A DNA stretch of 29,949 nucleotides from a virus: positions 1 to 29,949 of IMG/VR virus record IMGVR_UViG_3300024520_000358, one strand, 5' to 3'. The translations under genes were made by a program, and so were the position numbers. Positions 13,938-29,832 of this stretch are shown here, piece by piece (within the stretch, counting starts at the first letter, position 1; the number at the start of each line of letters is the position of its first letter). The notes beneath the pieces were generated by a model. It did no database searches and was not told where the DNA came from. It saw only the letters and a program-made list of their open reading frames with translations.

Positions 13938-14636
13938 TTATTCGGATAATTGTTTTGTTGCAAGCTCGTAAGCATCCCGAATTGAATCAACTGCGGTACC
14001 AAAATCACGACTGATAGAGCCTTCCGCTGAACCCGAACCATCCTCAATAACTGAGGCTGCACGCTTCTCATCCACAATGTCAGAGTTCTTGGCTTTGCTT
14101 TGCAAATCCGCATAAGTCATATGCGCATAAGCGGCATCCAAGTTCCCAATGTTGTGTTTCAAAGCGTGAGAGTACAACGCATTCTCGTCAATATCAGACT
14201 GATATTTGTCTCGCAGACCATTCATTTCTTTCTGCAAATTTTGCTGTCTGTTTAAGCGACCTTGTTCTTCAATGGCTGATTCAAGTCGTCTAAGCCTGGT
14301 TTCTTCTGGGTCCAGTTCTTCCATCTCTTCTTGAGGGACGGCAGCTTGGTTGCCCATTCTGATCCCAAACGCATCAGCTAAAGCCGATACGGCACTTTCG
14401 GGGTCAGACTCCAATGCTTGGACGATTGCCTCACCTTGAGCCAATCTTTCGCGTTCAGTTGCCAACTCTTGCGTCTTACGGGTGTAATCCGCTTGGCGTT
14501 GGTAGCCATTAATAAGTTCCGTTTGTGACACATCCATTTGCTCACCGTCAACGGTGACCGTATGGGTAGGGCCATTCACTTCACTTGAAGCACTCGGGTT
14601 GCTGGTATCCAGTCCCAAAGCTGTATTCTCATCCAT
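13938..14636 (-). CDS. Capsid scaffolding protein (232 aa)
   Basis: The 232-aa acidic protein is highly helical, with 'HTVTVDGEQMDVSQTELING' followed by 'YQRQADYTRKTQELATERER', the recognisable N-terminal signature of phage scaffold proteins. A long central coiled coil and a disordered acidic segment 'EDGSGSAEGS' follow, and the C-terminal helix 'SIRDAYELATKQLSE' is likely the capsid-binding end. It lies between portal and capsid genes. The product should be an internal scaffold that exits or is degraded during maturation. SD-like AAAGGA precedes the ATG. Confidence 0.88.
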   Translation of the reverse strand: MDENTALGLDTSNPSASSEVNGPTHTVTVDGEQMDVSQTELINGYQRQADYTRKTQELATERERLAQGEAIVQALESDPESAVSALADAFGIRMGNQAAVPQEEMEELDPEETRLRRLESAIEEQGRLNRQQNLQKEMNGLRDKYQSDIDENALYSHALKHNIGNLDAAYAHMTYADLQSKAKNSDIVDEKRAASVIEDGSGSAEGSISRDFGTAVDSIRDAYELATKQLSE

Positions 14637-20131: not shown

Positions 20132-20223
20132 TTCAAAAGCGGGACACAAAACCTCTATACTGAGTAATTACTCAGTACCAATCTCCTCACCCCCCAGGGG
20201 AGGAGATTGATACTCAGTACCAA
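20132..20223 (+). promoter_or_regulatory. Early rightward promoter with palindromic operator and leader hairpin (copy 1)
   Basis: A TATACT -10 box lies at 20156-20161, with a weak TTCAAA -35 18 nt upstream. It overlaps the perfect 18-nt palindrome ACTGAGTAATTACTCAGT (20159-20176), placed at the expected start site. A hairpin with 10-bp stem (CAATCTCCTC paired with GAGGAGATTG, 20179-20209) follows, and then the 15-mer GATACTCAGTACCAA (20209-20223), which repeats the operator half-site. The same order of elements recurs at 27241-27304. Confidence 0.65.
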
Positions 20224-20321
20224 TACCAAGCACTTTGGCGCATACAGGCGACAAAGGAGCCAAGTTCCAAAAACCAAACGCACTGTAAATGGATATCTAT
20301 ACATATGCATGTGCGCGGGGG

Positions 20322-20369: not shown

Positions 20370-20382
20370 GTCGGCTGCTGCA

Positions 20383-20425
20383 CTTAGTACTCTGTACTAA
20401 GTAATTCTCAGTACTTTGTACTGAG
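20383..20425 (+). promoter_or_regulatory. Two AGTAC-type palindromes in tandem
   Basis: CTTAGTAC-TCT-GTACTAAG (20383-20401) and CTCAGTAC-TTT-GTACTGAG (20407-20425) are perfect inverted repeats with 3-nt spacers. The junction between them (20394-20414) is a near copy of the promoter operator ACTGAGTAATTACTCAGT. They therefore look like extra binding sites of the same regulator, or hairpins in the leader. Confidence 0.6.
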
Positions 20426-20563
20426 TTTCGCCCAGGATTTACTCCGTAAATTGAGGAAGCTGTCGGCAAATGGCGGACCGCTGGACCTACGGTCCAACCC
20501 TTCGGTTTGTTGGTGGTTGGTGCTGTTGGGGTTCTGAAAGTAGCTTGGTTCTCTTTGAAAGAG

Positions 20564-20598
20564 GTTTCTCTCCCCCCTCTTTTGGAGGGGAGAGAAAC
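20564..20598 (+). repeat. Intergenic hairpin 1
   Basis: The stem is GTTTCTCTCCCC paired with GGGGAGAGAAAC around a short loop. The 35-nt sequence is identical to the copy at 21701-21735. It precedes the SD of the 48-aa gene by 16 nt. Confidence 0.8.
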
Positions 20599-20623
20599 CC
20601 CCAAACCGAAATTTGGAGGCAAG

Positions 20624-20770
20624 ATGTCGGAGAAGTTCTGGTATTTCGTTGAAGGGATTCATCATCGTTTCGTCTGTCGGAATGATGTTTATGTTCCTCA
20701 TTGTGATGAGGAAAGTTGTGATTATGGTTTCTGGGTTGATCCTGAGGAGAATCCTTGGAGGTTCATTTAG
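20624..20770 (+). CDS. First early gene: small Cys/Trp-rich protein (48 aa)
   Basis: ATG at 20624 has GGAGG 5 nt upstream. The 48-aa acidic aromatic protein starts 'MSEKFWYFVEGIHHRFVCRN' and contains 'CRNDVYVPHCDEESCDYGFW', with three cysteines and nearby His residues that may bind zinc. It ends 'DPEENPWRFI'. The family is not recognised. As the first gene after the early promoter it should be made immediately on infection, so a host-takeover role is possible, but this is only inference from position. Confidence 0.65.
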   Translation: MSEKFWYFVEGIHHRFVCRNDVYVPHCDEESCDYGFWVDPEENPWRFI

Positions 20771-20793: not shown

Positions 20794-20828
20794 GTTTGTT
20801 TCCCCCTCTTGTTTGAGGGGAAACAAAC
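20794..20828 (+). repeat. Intergenic hairpin 2
   Basis: GTTTGTTTCCCC pairs with GGGGAAACAAAC. The inner sequence CTC..TTGTTT..GA resembles the other intergenic hairpins, but the lower stem is different in sequence and still fully paired. Confidence 0.8.
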
Positions 20829-21050: not shown

Positions 21051-21100
21051 TTGAGGTTGTTCTCTCCTCCTCTCTTTTGAGAGGAGAGAACAACTCTCAA
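21051..21100 (+). repeat. Intergenic hairpin 3
   Basis: A 14-bp stem (GTTGTTCTCTCCTC with GAGGAGAGAACAAC, 21056-21094) is extended by TTGAG/CTCAA outside. It has the same layout as the other intergenic hairpins but another stem sequence. Confidence 0.8.
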
Positions 21101-21306: not shown

Positions 21307-21433
21307 CGCTTACAGCGTTGGTTGACCTTTCTTTCCAAGCCTTAGGGCTTGGAGGGTTAGGCCAGCTAATAGGCTGGTTCTCTCGTCTTATTTACTTCGT
21401 AACGTAGTGAAGAAGTAAATAAGACAGAGAAAC
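21306..21433 (+). repeat. Cluster of hairpins between the 61-aa and 77-aa genes
   Basis: In order: ACGCT/AGCGT (21306-21318), CCAAGCC/GGCTTGG (21335-21352), CCAGC/GCTGG (21362-21377), and a perfect 14-bp stem GTCTTATTTACTTC/GAAGTAAATAAGAC (21385-21398 with 21412-21425) flanked by partial GTTCTCTC/AGAGAAAC pairing. The last is AT-rich, unlike the C-rich stems of its neighbours. Confidence 0.7.
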
Positions 21434-21693: not shown

Positions 21694-21744
21694 GTTGGGT
21701 GTTTCTCTCCCCCCTCTTTTGGAGGGGAGAGAAACTCCCTAACA
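21694..21744 (+). repeat. Intergenic hairpin 5
   Basis: The 35-nt core (21701-21735) is identical to hairpin 1. Outside it, GTTGGG pairs with CCCTAAC around a one-base bulge. Confidence 0.8.
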
Positions 21745-22646: not shown

Positions 22647-22697
22647 GTTGGGTGTGTTCAACCCCCTCTTCGTTGAGGGGTTGAACACTCCCACAAC
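22647..22697 (+). repeat. Intergenic hairpin 6
   Basis: The inner stem GTGTTCAACCCC/GGGGTTGAACAC differs in sequence from other copies but keeps the outer GTTGGG/CCCACAAC frame and the CTCTT...GA loop region. Confidence 0.8.
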
Positions 22698-23427: not shown

Positions 23428-23478
23428 GTTGGGTGTTTCTCTCCCCCTCTAGTTTGAGGGGAGAGAAACCCCCACAAC
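23428..23478 (+). repeat. Intergenic hairpin 7
   Basis: GTTGGG...CCCACAAC frames the stem GTTTCTCTCCCC/GGGGAGAGAAAC. It is almost the same as hairpins 1 and 5, with a different loop (CTCTAGTTTGA). Confidence 0.8.
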
Positions 23479-25477: not shown

Positions 25478-26308
25478 ATGGGAACGAAAAAAGAGGTTAA
25501 AGACAAAAAAGTTTGTAGTGACTGTGGTGACCGTTTAGTCACAGGCAAAGGTGCTCGTGGTCTATGTGCCAGTTGCTATGGCCGACACTACGCTCGGGGA
25601 ACACTAAGCGACATACGACCTGCTAAAAGACGTTTGAAAGTAACAGCTACTTGTGTGTCTGTTATTGCTGCACACTGCAAAAAAAGAAATGGTGTGTGGG
25701 AACTTTTCTATTACCACGACACAGGTGTTCCTCCTACAGAAAATTACAAATGTGGGGGTTGCGAAAAAGCAGAGTTGTTTCGCATTCGTGGGGAAGAACG
25801 AGCACGTCTAAAGAAAAAACAAATATTAGAAAAGAGACGTTGGCAAGCGTCTACGTTGGGTGACCTTTGGGGTTTACCGTGGATTGAGAAAGTTCCTTAT
25901 TGGATTAACCCTGATTTCATTCCTGCGATGCCTAGGAATGGGGGTAAAGGGTTTGGGGGTGCTGTTGGGAAAACCCTAGGTAAACCATTCGTTGTGCGAG
26001 ATGGAGATTGTTTGCTGTGGCAATCGACCATTGACAGCAAAGGGTATGCGAAAGCAGGTGGCGGTGGTCAGCCGTCGAAAAGAGTGCATCGTTTGGTTGT
26101 GGCTTGGGCACAAAACGATGGGGTGGCTTTACCTAGGGACCAGTGCGTTCACCACATTTGTGGGAATAGGAATTGCGTGAATCCTGACCATTTACAAATA
26201 GTGAGTTATCAAGAAAATAGTAGTGAAGCTCAAAGAGCCAAAATGCTACGAGAAGAAATTGCTGAACTTAAAGCTGAGATACGGCGACTGAAACGGAAAG
26301 CCGCATGA
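25478..26308 (+). CDS. HNH endonuclease with N-terminal zinc finger (276 aa)
   Basis: The N-terminal CxxC...CxxC zinc finger ('KVCSDCGDRLVTGKGARGLC' continuing 'ASCYGRHYARG') is followed by a linker, a second CxxC ('CGGCEK'), and the HNH nuclease core 'QCVHHICGNRNCVNPDHLQI' with its His-His, Asn and His residues near residues 224-242. The C-terminal 'REEIAELKAEIRRLKRK' is a short coiled coil. Such free-standing enzymes are usually homing endonucleases in phage genomes. It overlaps the next HNH gene by ATGA. The two share layout, including the coiled-coil tail. Confidence 0.88.
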   Translation: MGTKKEVKDKKVCSDCGDRLVTGKGARGLCASCYGRHYARGTLSDIRPAKRRLKVTATCVSVIAAHCKKRNGVWELFYYHDTGVPPTENYKCGGCEKAELFRIRGEERARLKKKQILEKRRWQASTLGDLWGLPWIEKVPYWINPDFIPAMPRNGGKGFGGAVGKTLGKPFVVRDGDCLLWQSTIDSKGYAKAGGGGQPSKRVHRLVVAWAQNDGVALPRDQCVHHICGNRNCVNPDHLQIVSYQENSSEAQRAKMLREEIAELKAEIRRLKRKAA

Positions 26309-27009
26309 CCGAATTCAAACCCTACGCAGACAAGCGAGGGTACACCGACACCTCTTGGCCTGACCGCATCAAGCGTTACAGGGACCAAGGGTGTTGGGCC
26401 ATCATGCCTGACGGTACCGTTTGCGTCAGAAGTAGAAAGACAAGCAAAGAGTGGGATGGGCCAGGGTCCGTGGACGGGCGCATAGCGCTGTGTGCTGGGC
26501 ACGCTACACGATTCATTAAATACGGTAACCCTCGTACAGATATTTTTTTGAACCTACAACTAGGGATGACGTTTGAGCAGCGTGTAGAGCATTACATGAA
26601 TCCCGCAAATAAGTACGTCACTATCCAAAATCTTGGTTACTACACGCCGTGTATCATTTGGGAACGAAGCCGTATCCAAAGAGGATACGGCATCGTGAGT
26701 AGCAGAGTAGTCAATGAAGCCTGTGGTAAAGCTGAGAACTATCGCAGCAACATGCTGGTACATCGGATGATGTGGATTTACCACAACGGTTTAATTGAGG
26801 ATGGAGAAGAAGTTGACCATCTTTGTCATAAGAAACCGTGTTGCAACATAAACCATTTAGAACTTAAAAGTAGATCGGTTCACCGAGCAGACACTCGGAT
26901 GCACTCAGTCATAATATTTGAAAAAAATTTAAGAATCGCTGAACTGGAGAAAGAACTTGCCGAAATTAAATTACGGACAAGCACGAACGCCAAGAAAAAG
27001 ACGGCATAA
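26305..27009 (+). CDS. Second HNH endonuclease (234 aa)
   Basis: This gene starts at the ATGA overlap with the first HNH gene. The N-terminal part has a Cys-based motif 'QGCWAIMPDGTVCVRSRKTS' with 'LCAGHATRFIKYGNP', likely a zinc knuckle. The nuclease core is 'EEVDHLCHKKPCCNINHLEL' (HNH residues DH, N, H). The C-terminal helix 'RIAELEKELAEIKL' matches the coiled coil of the upstream paralogue. A homing or packaging-site nuclease role is the usual alternative. The two adjacent copies look like a tandem duplication that diverged. Confidence 0.85.
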   Translation: MTEFKPYADKRGYTDTSWPDRIKRYRDQGCWAIMPDGTVCVRSRKTSKEWDGPGSVDGRIALCAGHATRFIKYGNPRTDIFLNLQLGMTFEQRVEHYMNPANKYVTIQNLGYYTPCIIWERSRIQRGYGIVSSRVVNEACGKAENYRSNMLVHRMMWIYHNGLIEDGEEVDHLCHKKPCCNINHLELKSRSVHRADTRMHSVIIFEKNLRIAELEKELAEIKLRTSTNAKKKTA

Positions 27010-27217: not shown

Positions 27218-27304
27218 TTGCGCGCGAGACAGGTGTTCGCTATACTCAGTAATTACTCAGTGCCCCCCAATCATGGAAGGTGATTGGGGGATACTCAGTA
27301 CCAA
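27218..27304 (+). promoter_or_regulatory. Second early promoter with operator and leader hairpin (copy 2)
   Basis: TTGCGC (-35, 27218-27223), 17-nt spacer, TATACT (-10, 27241-27246). The sequence from 27241 to 27261 matches copy 1 at 20156-20176 with one difference (C for G at position 7). Then a 10-bp hairpin CCCCCAATCA/TGATTGGGGG (27264-27290) of unrelated sequence, and the same 15-mer GATACTCAGTACCAA (27290-27304) plus an extra ACTCAGTG. It drives the replication module starting at 27338. Confidence 0.75.
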
Positions 27305-27337
27305 CTCAGTGTCACACCCTCCTGAGAAACTAGATGT

Positions 27338-28138
27338 ATGAAGAAATATCCACTACACAGAGACAGCGACGGACGATGGGTCCACGATTGGGTTCGCCAA
27401 TCGTCCATCAAGACCGCCGATATGTGCTTAGAAAGATTCCGAAACACTATCTTTGGACTTGTAAGCGAAGAAACAAAAGACGCCGCCACACTGGGTACTG
27501 CCTGTCACGCAGTCGCAGAGGACGCTCTCAACACCCGCATAGGGGGAGGAGAGATGACTGAGCAAGACATGGTTGACGCATTTGAGATGCACTGGGAGGA
27601 GCTACTCCCCACCATAGAGGTGTGGAACAGTTATTCAGGTGAGAGCGCTTACGCAGCGGGGCTACGCAAGATCGAGTCGTGGCGCACCGAAGTTCTGCCT
27701 GGCCTAAAGCCAGTAGCAGTCGAAGAATATTTCAATTTACCTTTCCATGAAGATGACAGCAGGGTCGTCAACTTCTCAGGGACGATTGACCTAGTAGAAG
27801 AGGACAGGCTGTGGGACTGGAAGTTCCCTGGCCGTGACTACAGCAGGGAGAAATGGCAGTACGAAAGATGGGATGTTCAGTCAATGGCCTACTGCTGGGC
27901 AAAAGACATTTCTAATTTCTCTTATGCGATCATGCACCCTAAAGGGGTTGGTCGCATGGATATAGTTCGAGACAAAAACCATAGTGAATGGTTACGTCAA
28001 AAGGTCTTGGGGTTATGCCGCATCGTGGAACAGCAGGTGGGAACGTACCCGCTTGGTGACGATGGTTGGTGGTGCTCCGAGAAATGGTGCCCAGCGTGGG
28101 CACGGTGCAAAGGCGCAACAATAGGAGGCGCAAACTGA
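27338..28138 (+). CDS. PD-(D/E)XK exonuclease, RecB/Cas4-like, with likely Fe-S cluster (266 aa)
   Basis: Motifs run in family order: 'TLGTACHAVAE' (H57), 'VNFSGTIDLVEE' (D151), 'LWDWKFPG' (D160, K162) and 'QSMAYCWA' (Q181, Y185). Cysteines C30, C246, C251 and C257 ('WWCSEKWCPAWARCKG') have the one-plus-three arrangement that binds a 4Fe-4S cluster in AddB/Cas4-type nucleases. The enzyme should trim DNA ends, probably for phage recombination or replication. It is first in the operon behind the second promoter. The start at 27338 has only a weak SD; the 27334 ATG is in another frame. Confidence 0.82.
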   Translation: MKKYPLHRDSDGRWVHDWVRQSSIKTADMCLERFRNTIFGLVSEETKDAATLGTACHAVAEDALNTRIGGGEMTEQDMVDAFEMHWEELLPTIEVWNSYSGESAYAAGLRKIESWRTEVLPGLKPVAVEEYFNLPFHEDDSRVVNFSGTIDLVEEDRLWDWKFPGRDYSREKWQYERWDVQSMAYCWAKDISNFSYAIMHPKGVGRMDIVRDKNHSEWLRQKVLGLCRIVEQQVGTYPLGDDGWWCSEKWCPAWARCKGATIGGAN

Positions 28139-28139
28139 T

Positions 28140-28841
28140 ATGGCATGGAAACCAATGGAACCGCATGAGCGGGAGAGTATAGAAGCCCAAGTGATCCTGA
28201 AAGGTGCTGTCGAGTTGACAGCAGCGCAGGTAACAATGAACACCACAGATCCTAACGAGGATATTTTGACGACGTTGACGGATAATGCCGCAGCGCTGAC
28301 GAACATCCTTACGGATGTCAAAACCCAATTAGGATCACTTGCTCCAGTAGCAGCAGCGGTACAGCTAGAAGCTCAAGCTGTAGCGAAAGTGAATCAGGCA
28401 TTCACAGGGGGGGATCGTAAGCAGAGCTTGTACCTAGATGATGATGACTACGACGGAGTGCACAAAATATTTATGGCTGAGAAGAATGCTGGTGTTGTGT
28501 ATGCGTCCAAAGATTCTGCGTTTATGGATAACCAGGCAATCCGTAAGCTCTTTCAAACAGGGGTTCGTCAGTTTCCTGGCGACTATTGGGCAGATTCGAT
28601 GCGAGGTAAAGACATTCCGCAAACCAAAACAGGAAAATGTGGACTAGGTGACTTCAAACTAAAGAAAGGATTGTCTGTCGGTGAAGATGGGCAAGCCTTT
28701 GTTGGTCAAGGCGACGGTAACCATCCTCTTGCAAGTAAGAGTGGTTACTTCGCTGGACTACAGAAGAACACCCCGTGGTCGTGGCCTGAGCGTCCTGAGC
28801 CAGTGGACCCGCAGGGTTGGCTAGCTGGGATTAGTGGCTGA
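28140..28841 (+). CDS. Hypothetical protein in the recombination module (233 aa)
   Basis: ATG at 28140 lies one base after the TGA of the exonuclease. The 233-aa protein has a helical N-terminus ('EVLKGAVELTAAQV'-like, residues 15-35), then a long Ala/Leu-rich segment 'NAAALTNILTDVKTQLGSLA', a loop 'GDRKQSLYLDDDDYDGVHKI', and a Gly/Asp-rich C-terminal half ending 'EPVDPQGWLAGISG'. No family is recognised. Location between an exonuclease and a RecA-like ATPase suggests a single-strand annealing or ssDNA-binding role, but nothing in the sequence proves this. Confidence 0.65.
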   Translation: MAWKPMEPHERESIEAQVILKGAVELTAAQVTMNTTDPNEDILTTLTDNAAALTNILTDVKTQLGSLAPVAAAVQLEAQAVAKVNQAFTGGDRKQSLYLDDDDYDGVHKIFMAEKNAGVVYASKDSAFMDNQAIRKLFQTGVRQFPGDYWADSMRGKDIPQTKTGKCGLGDFKLKKGLSVGEDGQAFVGQGDGNHPLASKSGYFAGLQKNTPWSWPERPEPVDPQGWLAGISG

Positions 28842-29832
28842 AGAAATCAGTTTGGAGGAAGCAAGGAAACTTGTGGCGGGGGCGACTTCTGCGGTCGCAC
28901 CCGCTCCTCCCGAAACTGAACCACCTGTGGTTGAGGGGGTTTCCCCCGAAGATCTACGCAGATTATTTACTTCTAAAGGCGAACAAGTTCGTCGTATGCG
29001 GCATGACCTACGTGCTGGTAATGAATGGAGTTTCGGGGTCAGGTCTTTTGATGAGGCCACACTTGGCGGGGCCAGACCAGGGCAGTTAGTGACCTTGATA
29101 GGTAGATCGCATACAGGAAAAACGTTGCTGGCGATGAACATGGTTGCCAAGAACAGAAACCATCGCACCCTGTGGGTCAGCCCCGATGAAACGGAAACAA
29201 TGTTTTGGGGACGGTACTCGTCTATTCGTTTGGAGTATGACCAGAAAGAATGGATCACTCGGCTGATCCGCGAAGATCCCAAGGCATGGGAACGGGTCGA
29301 ACAAATCATGCAAGACGAAACCAATTTGCATTTCGAGTCCACAGGTATGAGCGTGGACGACTTAGACAAAGCGTTACGCATTGCGTCCACCACTCTGTGG
29401 GGAGGTAAACGGCCAGAAGTTTTGGTTTACGATTTCCTTGAACTGATTAGAGGAGGAGAATCGGGGGACGCAGCCAGCGTCCAAGCCAAGATTGAATCAT
29501 TCAAACAACTGGTATCGGACTGGCGATTGGTGGGTGTCATCATCCACCAATCAGGTAGAGGCACGGGGAACCGTGGCAAGGCTGGTGGTTTGGAGGCGGG
29601 CAGGTACGCATCCACAAGTGAAAGCCATTTCTTAATTGAAACGTGGCGTCGTTGGGATGACACGAACTTGGATGAGGAAACTCGGGCCTATTATGAGGAC
29701 GAAGTTTCCGCTGGCCTGTGGAAAAACAAGGCAGGGGATGGGGAAAAAGCTGAGGTAAACCTCACCATAGACAGCAGTGGACGTATCCTAGAACCAGGAA
29801 TCGCTTGGGAACAAGGGACATTCGATGGATAG
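28834..29832 (+). CDS. RecA/DnaB-like ATPase, probable replicative helicase (332 aa)
   Basis: GTG at 28834 overlaps the upstream gene by 8 nt. The N-terminal 60 residues are acidic/Pro-rich. Walker A is 'LIGRSHTGKTLLA' (G90-T97) and Walker B is 'PEVLVYDFLELI' (D200), followed by 'GVIIHQSGRGTG' (237-244, a DnaB motif-3-like Q). 'TLWVSPDETE' sits at the position of the first DnaB-family catalytic glutamate motif. These match RecA-core hexameric ATPases such as DnaB-like helicases or RadA-type proteins. It lacks a normal DnaB N-terminal primase-binding domain, so a helicase that loads alone or a recombinase is possible. Confidence 0.82.
   Translation: MAEEISLEEARKLVAGATSAVAPAPPETEPPVVEGVSPEDLRRLFTSKGEQVRRMRHDLRAGNEWSFGVRSFDEATLGGARPGQLVTLIGRSHTGKTLLAMNMVAKNRNHRTLWVSPDETETMFWGRYSSIRLEYDQKEWITRLIREDPKAWERVEQIMQDETNLHFESTGMSVDDLDKALRIASTTLWGGKRPEVLVYDFLELIRGGESGDAASVQAKIESFKQLVSDWRLVGVIIHQSGRGTGNRGKAGGLEAGRYASTSESHFLIETWRRWDDTNLDEETRAYYEDEVSAGLWKNKAGDGEKAEVNLTIDSSGRILEPGIAWEQGTFDG

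Follow-up and report, generated by a model that had tools for sequence, protein, structure and literature searches.

Two operons of an uncultured marine phage are preceded by copies of one compact module in which palindromic boxes flank a strong hairpin, and this module is a real regulatory device, not a chance repeat, because it recurs in many related phages. Each copy would be a promoter-leader module with two overlaid functions: a single regulator bound to the boxes would repress both operons, and the hairpin would form a 5′-terminal mRNA structure that most likely protects the transcript. To this combined reading we assign about an even chance of being correct.

The window, that is, the whole stretch of DNA that was analyzed, comprises the 29,949 bases of IMG/VR virus record IMGVR_UViG_3300024520_000358. 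Up to ∼20.1 kb, the minus strand encodes the terminase, the portal, and other virion proteins; to the right of this point, the plus strand carries many small ORFs, followed by genes for an exonuclease and a DnaB-like helicase. The first gene of the rightward operon is a small ORF of 48 amino acids (positions 20624 to 20770, plus strand) that follows an intercistronic hairpin and is absent from the list of ORFs of at least 50 amino acids. The first gene after the second element encodes a PD-(D/E)XK exonuclease (27338 to 28138, plus strand; phrog_1218, 4e-14; PF12705, 2e-12), and the same operon region includes the genes for a 233-amino-acid protein without a known family (28140 to 28841, plus strand) and for the DnaB-like helicase (28834 to 29832, plus strand; phrog_19, 5e-17; PF03796, 2e-8). 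Two adjacent HNH endonuclease genes (25478 to 27009) lie immediately upstream of element 2. Strong hairpins of differing sequence are found between the small rightward genes (20563 to 20599, 20794 to 20828, 21056 to 21094, 21385 to 21425, 21697 to 21739, 22649 to 22693, and 23430 to 23474), and many of these inter-gene hairpins stand shortly 5′ of a Shine-Dalgarno-like GGAGG and a start codon; in one relative, G002, the rightward leader (L277, 14886 to 15262) holds about eight near-perfect hairpins of different sequences, ∼35 to 60 nt apart. Relatives were collected via the exonuclease and via the terminase. When cellular genomes were searched with the exonuclease to find a host, a single distant match was obtained, which was uninformative. 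The boxes, their positions, the conservation of the structure, and its register with the predicted start were all computed here.

The original prediction rested on two repeats. The first is as described: the 21 nucleotides at 27241 to 27261 (TATACTCAGTAATTACTCAGT) differ by one base from those at 20156 to 20176 (TATACTGAGTAATTACTCAGT). A 22-mer pattern matches the window exactly only at the two elements, against a shuffle expectation of 0.00, with an additional match at three mismatches on the opposite strand of the first element's site. The second repeat, the 15-mer GATACTCAGTACCAA, is indeed identical between 20209 to 20223 and 27290 to 27304, but it does not stand as a separate motif, because it holds another copy of the same box. 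Both repeats are built from a single palindromic box, TACTNAGTA, which takes the form (GG)TACTNAGTA(CC) and is often extended to GGTACTNAGTACC; the 21-nt repeat comprises two box copies 11 bp apart, and the 15-mer contributes a third copy right after the hairpin. Allowing at most one mismatch, TACTCAGTA has 20 matches in the window, compared with 4.3 expected and a maximum of 10 among 100 shuffles.

On the plus strand, element 1 consists of tandem boxes 11 bp apart (20158 to 20177), namely TACTGAGTA (20158 to 20166) and TACTCAGTA (20169 to 20177), followed by the hairpin (20179 to 20209) and a further TACTCAGTA box (20211 to 20219) that forms the core of the 15-mer. Element 2, on the same strand, has the tandem boxes TACTCAGTA (27243 to 27251) and TACTCAGTG (27254 to 27262), again 11 bp apart (27243 to 27262), then the hairpin (27264 to 27290) and two more boxes, TACTCAGTA (27292 to 27300) and AACTCAGTG (27303 to 27311), with the same 11-bp spacing (27292 to 27311). 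Extra boxes occur at 20381 to 20427 (plus strand) as two small palindromes, ACTTAGTAC-TCT-GTACTAAGT and CTCAGTAC-TTT-GTACTGAG, and close relatives also have box clusters at the equivalent place.

Both elements include a promoter-like stretch on the plus strand, GGGACA - 9 nt - TATACT in element 1 (20141 to 20161, with the −10-like hexamer at 20156 to 20161) and GAGACA - 9 nt - TATACT in element 2 (27226 to 27246, hexamer at 27241 to 27246). The spacing is equal in the two, and in each the first box overlaps the hexamer TATACT. A scan with the sigma-70 consensus returned TTCAAA-18-TATACT for element 1, at chance level, and no promoter for element 2. The pattern GGGACA-N7-9-TAnnnT recurs at the same place of the divergent region in both box-bearing and box-less relatives (window 20141 to 20161; L277, ∼14458 to 14480), and its 7- to 9-nt spacing is unlike that of a −35/−10 pair. 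Another stretch, ATATCTATACAT (20293 to 20304), is conserved among the divergent regions of several relatives, some of them without the box, and is followed by a G/C-rich hairpin; it is possibly another promoter.

The hairpin enclosed by the boxes has 13 pairs and one A bulge in element 1 and 11 pairs in element 2, with folding energies, calculated for RNA, of −31.5 kcal/mol (z −5.1) and −29.8 kcal/mol (z −2.7), respectively. The two were predicted to be of the same size but of different sequence; they are indeed unrelated in sequence, but their sizes, 31 versus 27 nt, are only roughly equal. The sequence of the element 1 hairpin also varies among relatives. Across 36 representatives below 85% identity, the eight fixed positions of the box columns carry 1.4 to 2.0 bits, and the first seven arm positions are 39% identical versus 86% for box 1, a conservation that is partly a condition of detection because boxes 1 and 2 were found with the box pattern. 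Among similar elements of equal length, the stems differ by 21 compensatory versus 3 one-sided changes (in full, 21 compensatory, 2 double changes without pairing in both, 2 one-sided mismatches, and 1 G-U), a count biased against broken stem intermediates by the requirement of at least eight contiguous pairs. As in stabilizing stem-loops, it is the pairing that is conserved and not the sequence. Of the distinct box pairs 33 to 46 bp apart in relatives, 47 of 59 enclose a stem; boxes that are kept while the hairpin is lost were seen only as box clusters elsewhere or, once, as an interrupted stem. Thus, the stems diverge but remain paired and most box pairs enclose one, indicating that the hairpin is kept as structure, with its sequence free to change, as had been proposed.

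A search of the relatives for further copies of the module, which covered 165 loci that overlap and include near-identical strains, identified 120 box-hairpin-box elements in related phage contigs totaling ∼1.6 Mb, whereas the reversed and the shuffled controls contained none. When viral contigs were scanned with the box pattern, the matches listed included chance matches in unrelated phages. By our reading of the tables, 11 of the 18 near-complete relatives, besides the window itself, carry two elements at the window's two places, one separating the terminase operon from the rightward genes and the other 5′ of the exonuclease gene. The remaining near-complete relatives have incomplete sequence, a degenerate box (G010), or no box (G011, G012, and G016). 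The terminases of the three box-less genomes are 81 to 82% identical to that of the window, and their exonucleases are distant (28 to 43%); the box therefore travels with the early region. These phages are generally rich in strong hairpins, and the module could in principle be an ordinary leftover, that is, a duplicated promoter and an unrelated stable hairpin beside a repeated motif, with no joint function; set against the absence of elements from the controls, the conserved position and order in relatives, and the compensatory stem changes, this reading appears extremely improbable.

In most exonuclease loci, down to ∼60% protein identity, the start codon is preceded by a box, the hairpin, a box, and a Shine-Dalgarno-like sequence; a few loci are without the module directly upstream of the start codon. 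The lineage of G012 follows the same plan with another palindrome, CTGCTAGCAG or GCCAGCAGGCTGGC, 5′ of the hairpin, and in the lineage of G016 the hairpin abuts the −10, with no recognizable box. Because distant relatives keep a start-site hairpin with a different box or none, the hairpin is more general than any one box. Among named phages, only MW202803 has a relative of the exonuclease, and it shows no such module in the regions checked.

Several features of the boxes point to DNA sites. Where boxes occur in tandem, their spacing clusters at 11 bp, with 16 distinct cases. The central bases of the two boxes that flank the hairpin are the same in 23 of the 36 representatives, complementary in 8, and neither in 5, a distribution that copies of a DNA site would explain better than would selection for the boxes to pair with each other; a selected RNA helix formed by the two boxes is disfavored by these identical central bases. 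The first box overlaps the presumed −10 and so lies upstream of the start, and, provided that this hexamer is the −10, it would be left out of the RNA; therefore, the boxes should act as DNA operators, and (GG)TACTNAGTA(CC) would be the double-stranded binding site of one dimeric, lineage-specific regulator. At both operons, the repeated palindromic site overlaps predicted promoter elements, as in phage repressor operator sets: one box shares bases with the −10-like hexamer, and a second, 11 bp farther, would cover the predicted start, so that binding of the regulator would repress. The type of the central pair (C/G or A/T), read from tables, is mostly shared by both elements within a genome, an agreement to which no probability was attached because the genomes are related. 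This agreement, along with the presence of both elements at the same places in 11 near-complete relatives, upholds the proposal that the two operons share control and points to one DNA-binding regulator that would serve both, such that the small rightward-gene operon and the exonuclease-helicase operon would be controlled together; both the binding protein and repression are inferred. Lambda-type operators similarly comprise several palindromic copies at two early promoters and overlap the −10 and the start; however, those of the module flank a hairpin within the leader, whereas the lambda operators do not.

Protein clusters from 19 genomes were searched for the regulator, and none of the genes with a recognizable HTH followed the distribution of the box; the window is not complete, and some small proteins belong to no family. 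The only box-tracking cluster over these genomes is the 233-amino-acid protein encoded 3′ of the exonuclease gene, which is present in all genomes that have the box and this region and absent from G011, G012, and G016; it has no family and no recognized HTH. A small protein with a sigma-region-4-like motif (IPKTTVARKRD; L290, 5658 to 6041) is encoded in 16 of the 19 genomes, two of them without the box, and was rejected as a box-tracking regulator because of its presence in box-less genomes; it is a candidate late regulator.

The palindrome could also act as DNA, with negative supercoiling extruding a cruciform that would place the flanking operators in register and a multimeric regulator sensing or fixing the extruded state at the promoter. 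The box-to-box distance across the hairpin is mostly 36 to 45 bp, with no helical phase in linear DNA, but subtracting the hairpin leaves 10 to 12 bp in 33 of the 36 representatives, near the 11-bp spacing of tandem boxes. The palindrome of the box-less relatives starts directly at the −10, and therefore its outermost bases would escape transcription. Stem intermediates with G-U pairs or mismatches are few, and G-U pairs are rare overall (2 versus 996 Watson-Crick pairs), which counts against an RNA role, as selection at the RNA level would be expected to tolerate them; a G-U test of RNA versus DNA was suggestive in one set, but a wider matched comparison with other hairpins was not significant. 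The stems abut the boxes, but this is equally expected of an RNA hairpin whose ends are boxes, and a limited literature search yielded no phage operator that works by extrusion. We consider the cruciform unlikely. Less probable again is a DNA switch in which extrusion would cut the operator distance to one helical turn, the regulator would read supercoiling or lock the promoter, and the mRNA would subsequently have these same bases as its paired 5′ end.

For the transcript-protecting role that we prefer, the position of the hairpin relative to the start is central. In 38 leaders, −10-like hexamers were assigned by eye from the consensus and the start was set seven bases downstream. In 33 of the 38 (87%), the predicted RNA opens with a nucleotide that is paired or adjacent to a paired one, versus 38% in dinucleotide shuffles; this value peaks at zero shift of the start and drops to 74 to 79% for one-base and 63 to 74% for four-base shifts. 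The hairpin would accordingly lie within a few nucleotides of the 5′ end in 33 of the 38 leaders, with starts predicted from the hexamers; the true start sites and mRNA protection are inferred. In the transcript, the hairpin between the operators would make up the very 5′ end. The operators are palindromic and flank the hairpin; an RNA begun inside the first operator would therefore base-pair at its 5′ end with the following operator, and its 5′ tail would be almost or entirely free of unpaired bases. Paired 5′ ends hinder 5′-end-dependent decay, and the most likely role of the hairpin would therefore be to yield long-lived transcripts, in line with the strong hairpins 5′ of many rightward-operon genes.

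The mRNA of ompA carries a stabilizing stem-loop at its 5′ end. In Escherichia coli, a 5′ hairpin impedes RppH and can stabilize mRNA, and in Bacillus subtilis, long stretches of downstream RNA are protected by 5′ hairpins, although the stability of some mRNAs is independent of a sequestered 5′ end (PMC3997798). The 5′-terminal stabilizing stem-loops of papA, engineered bla, and the aprE leader of B. subtilis resemble the present hairpin, which would stand at the very 5′ end and act by structure (PMC3997798). Unlike these stem-loops, the hairpin here is enclosed by a conserved palindromic site that overlaps the predicted promoter and recurs at two operons of one genome, and its protective effect is presumed.

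Alternatively, the nascent hairpin might be a cis-acting antitermination or anti-pausing RNA that stays with RNA polymerase and allows read-through of hairpin-rich operons. The put RNA of phage HK022 is placed after both early promoters, at the start of both early operons (PMC9378689); the module follows the same logic in standing at the start of two phage operons, and hairpins abound in the rightward operon. In G002, element 1 is followed, ∼30 nt on, by a terminator-like hairpin that has seven consecutive T (L277, ∼14566 to 14592), but a scan found no T-run terminator between the window's elements and their first genes. Moreover, putL and putR share sequence and form two stem-loops of ∼70 nt that contact RNA polymerase (PMC9378689), whereas the module has one inner stem of free sequence between conserved boxes, and no Rfam family matches in the window. 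Antitermination is thus about as doubtful as the cruciform. Hairpins near conserved boxes are known from other phage leaders: in the nut sites of lambdoid phages, boxA lies next to the boxB hairpin in early leaders, whereas the boxes here are palindromic, one of them is upstream of the predicted start, and a single genome can have two different hairpins. The early mRNA of T7 carries RNase III processing hairpins 5′ of early-operon genes; in contrast, the operon-leading hairpin here has flanking boxes.

Finally, the module might be a replication origin or a recombination or processing site, with the boxes bound by an initiator or recombinase and the hairpin recognized as a single-strand feature. 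Next to element 1, near 20 kb, the cumulative GC skew changes direction, but this turn coincides with the change of coding strand. Element 2 heads the replication operon, and hairpin-less box clusters lie near element 1; however, the location of both copies at gene starts, with element 2 preceding, in many relatives, a Shine-Dalgarno-like sequence and a start codon, fits leaders better, and no initiator or recombinase gene that tracks the box was found in the 19 genomes. An origin or recombination site is, in our judgment, quite improbable.

Operator arrays and 5′-terminal hairpins are each known; their combination as seen here is, judging from a limited literature search, apparently undescribed. 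This regulatory architecture recurs across a large group of uncultured marine phages: between 100% and ∼60% identity, most exonuclease relatives keep the module, and distant ones keep the plan with another box or none. The arrangement suggests a compact design in which repression and transcript protection would be drawn from the same bases, and the module may serve as a marker for finding the cognate regulators through comparison of lineages with differing boxes.
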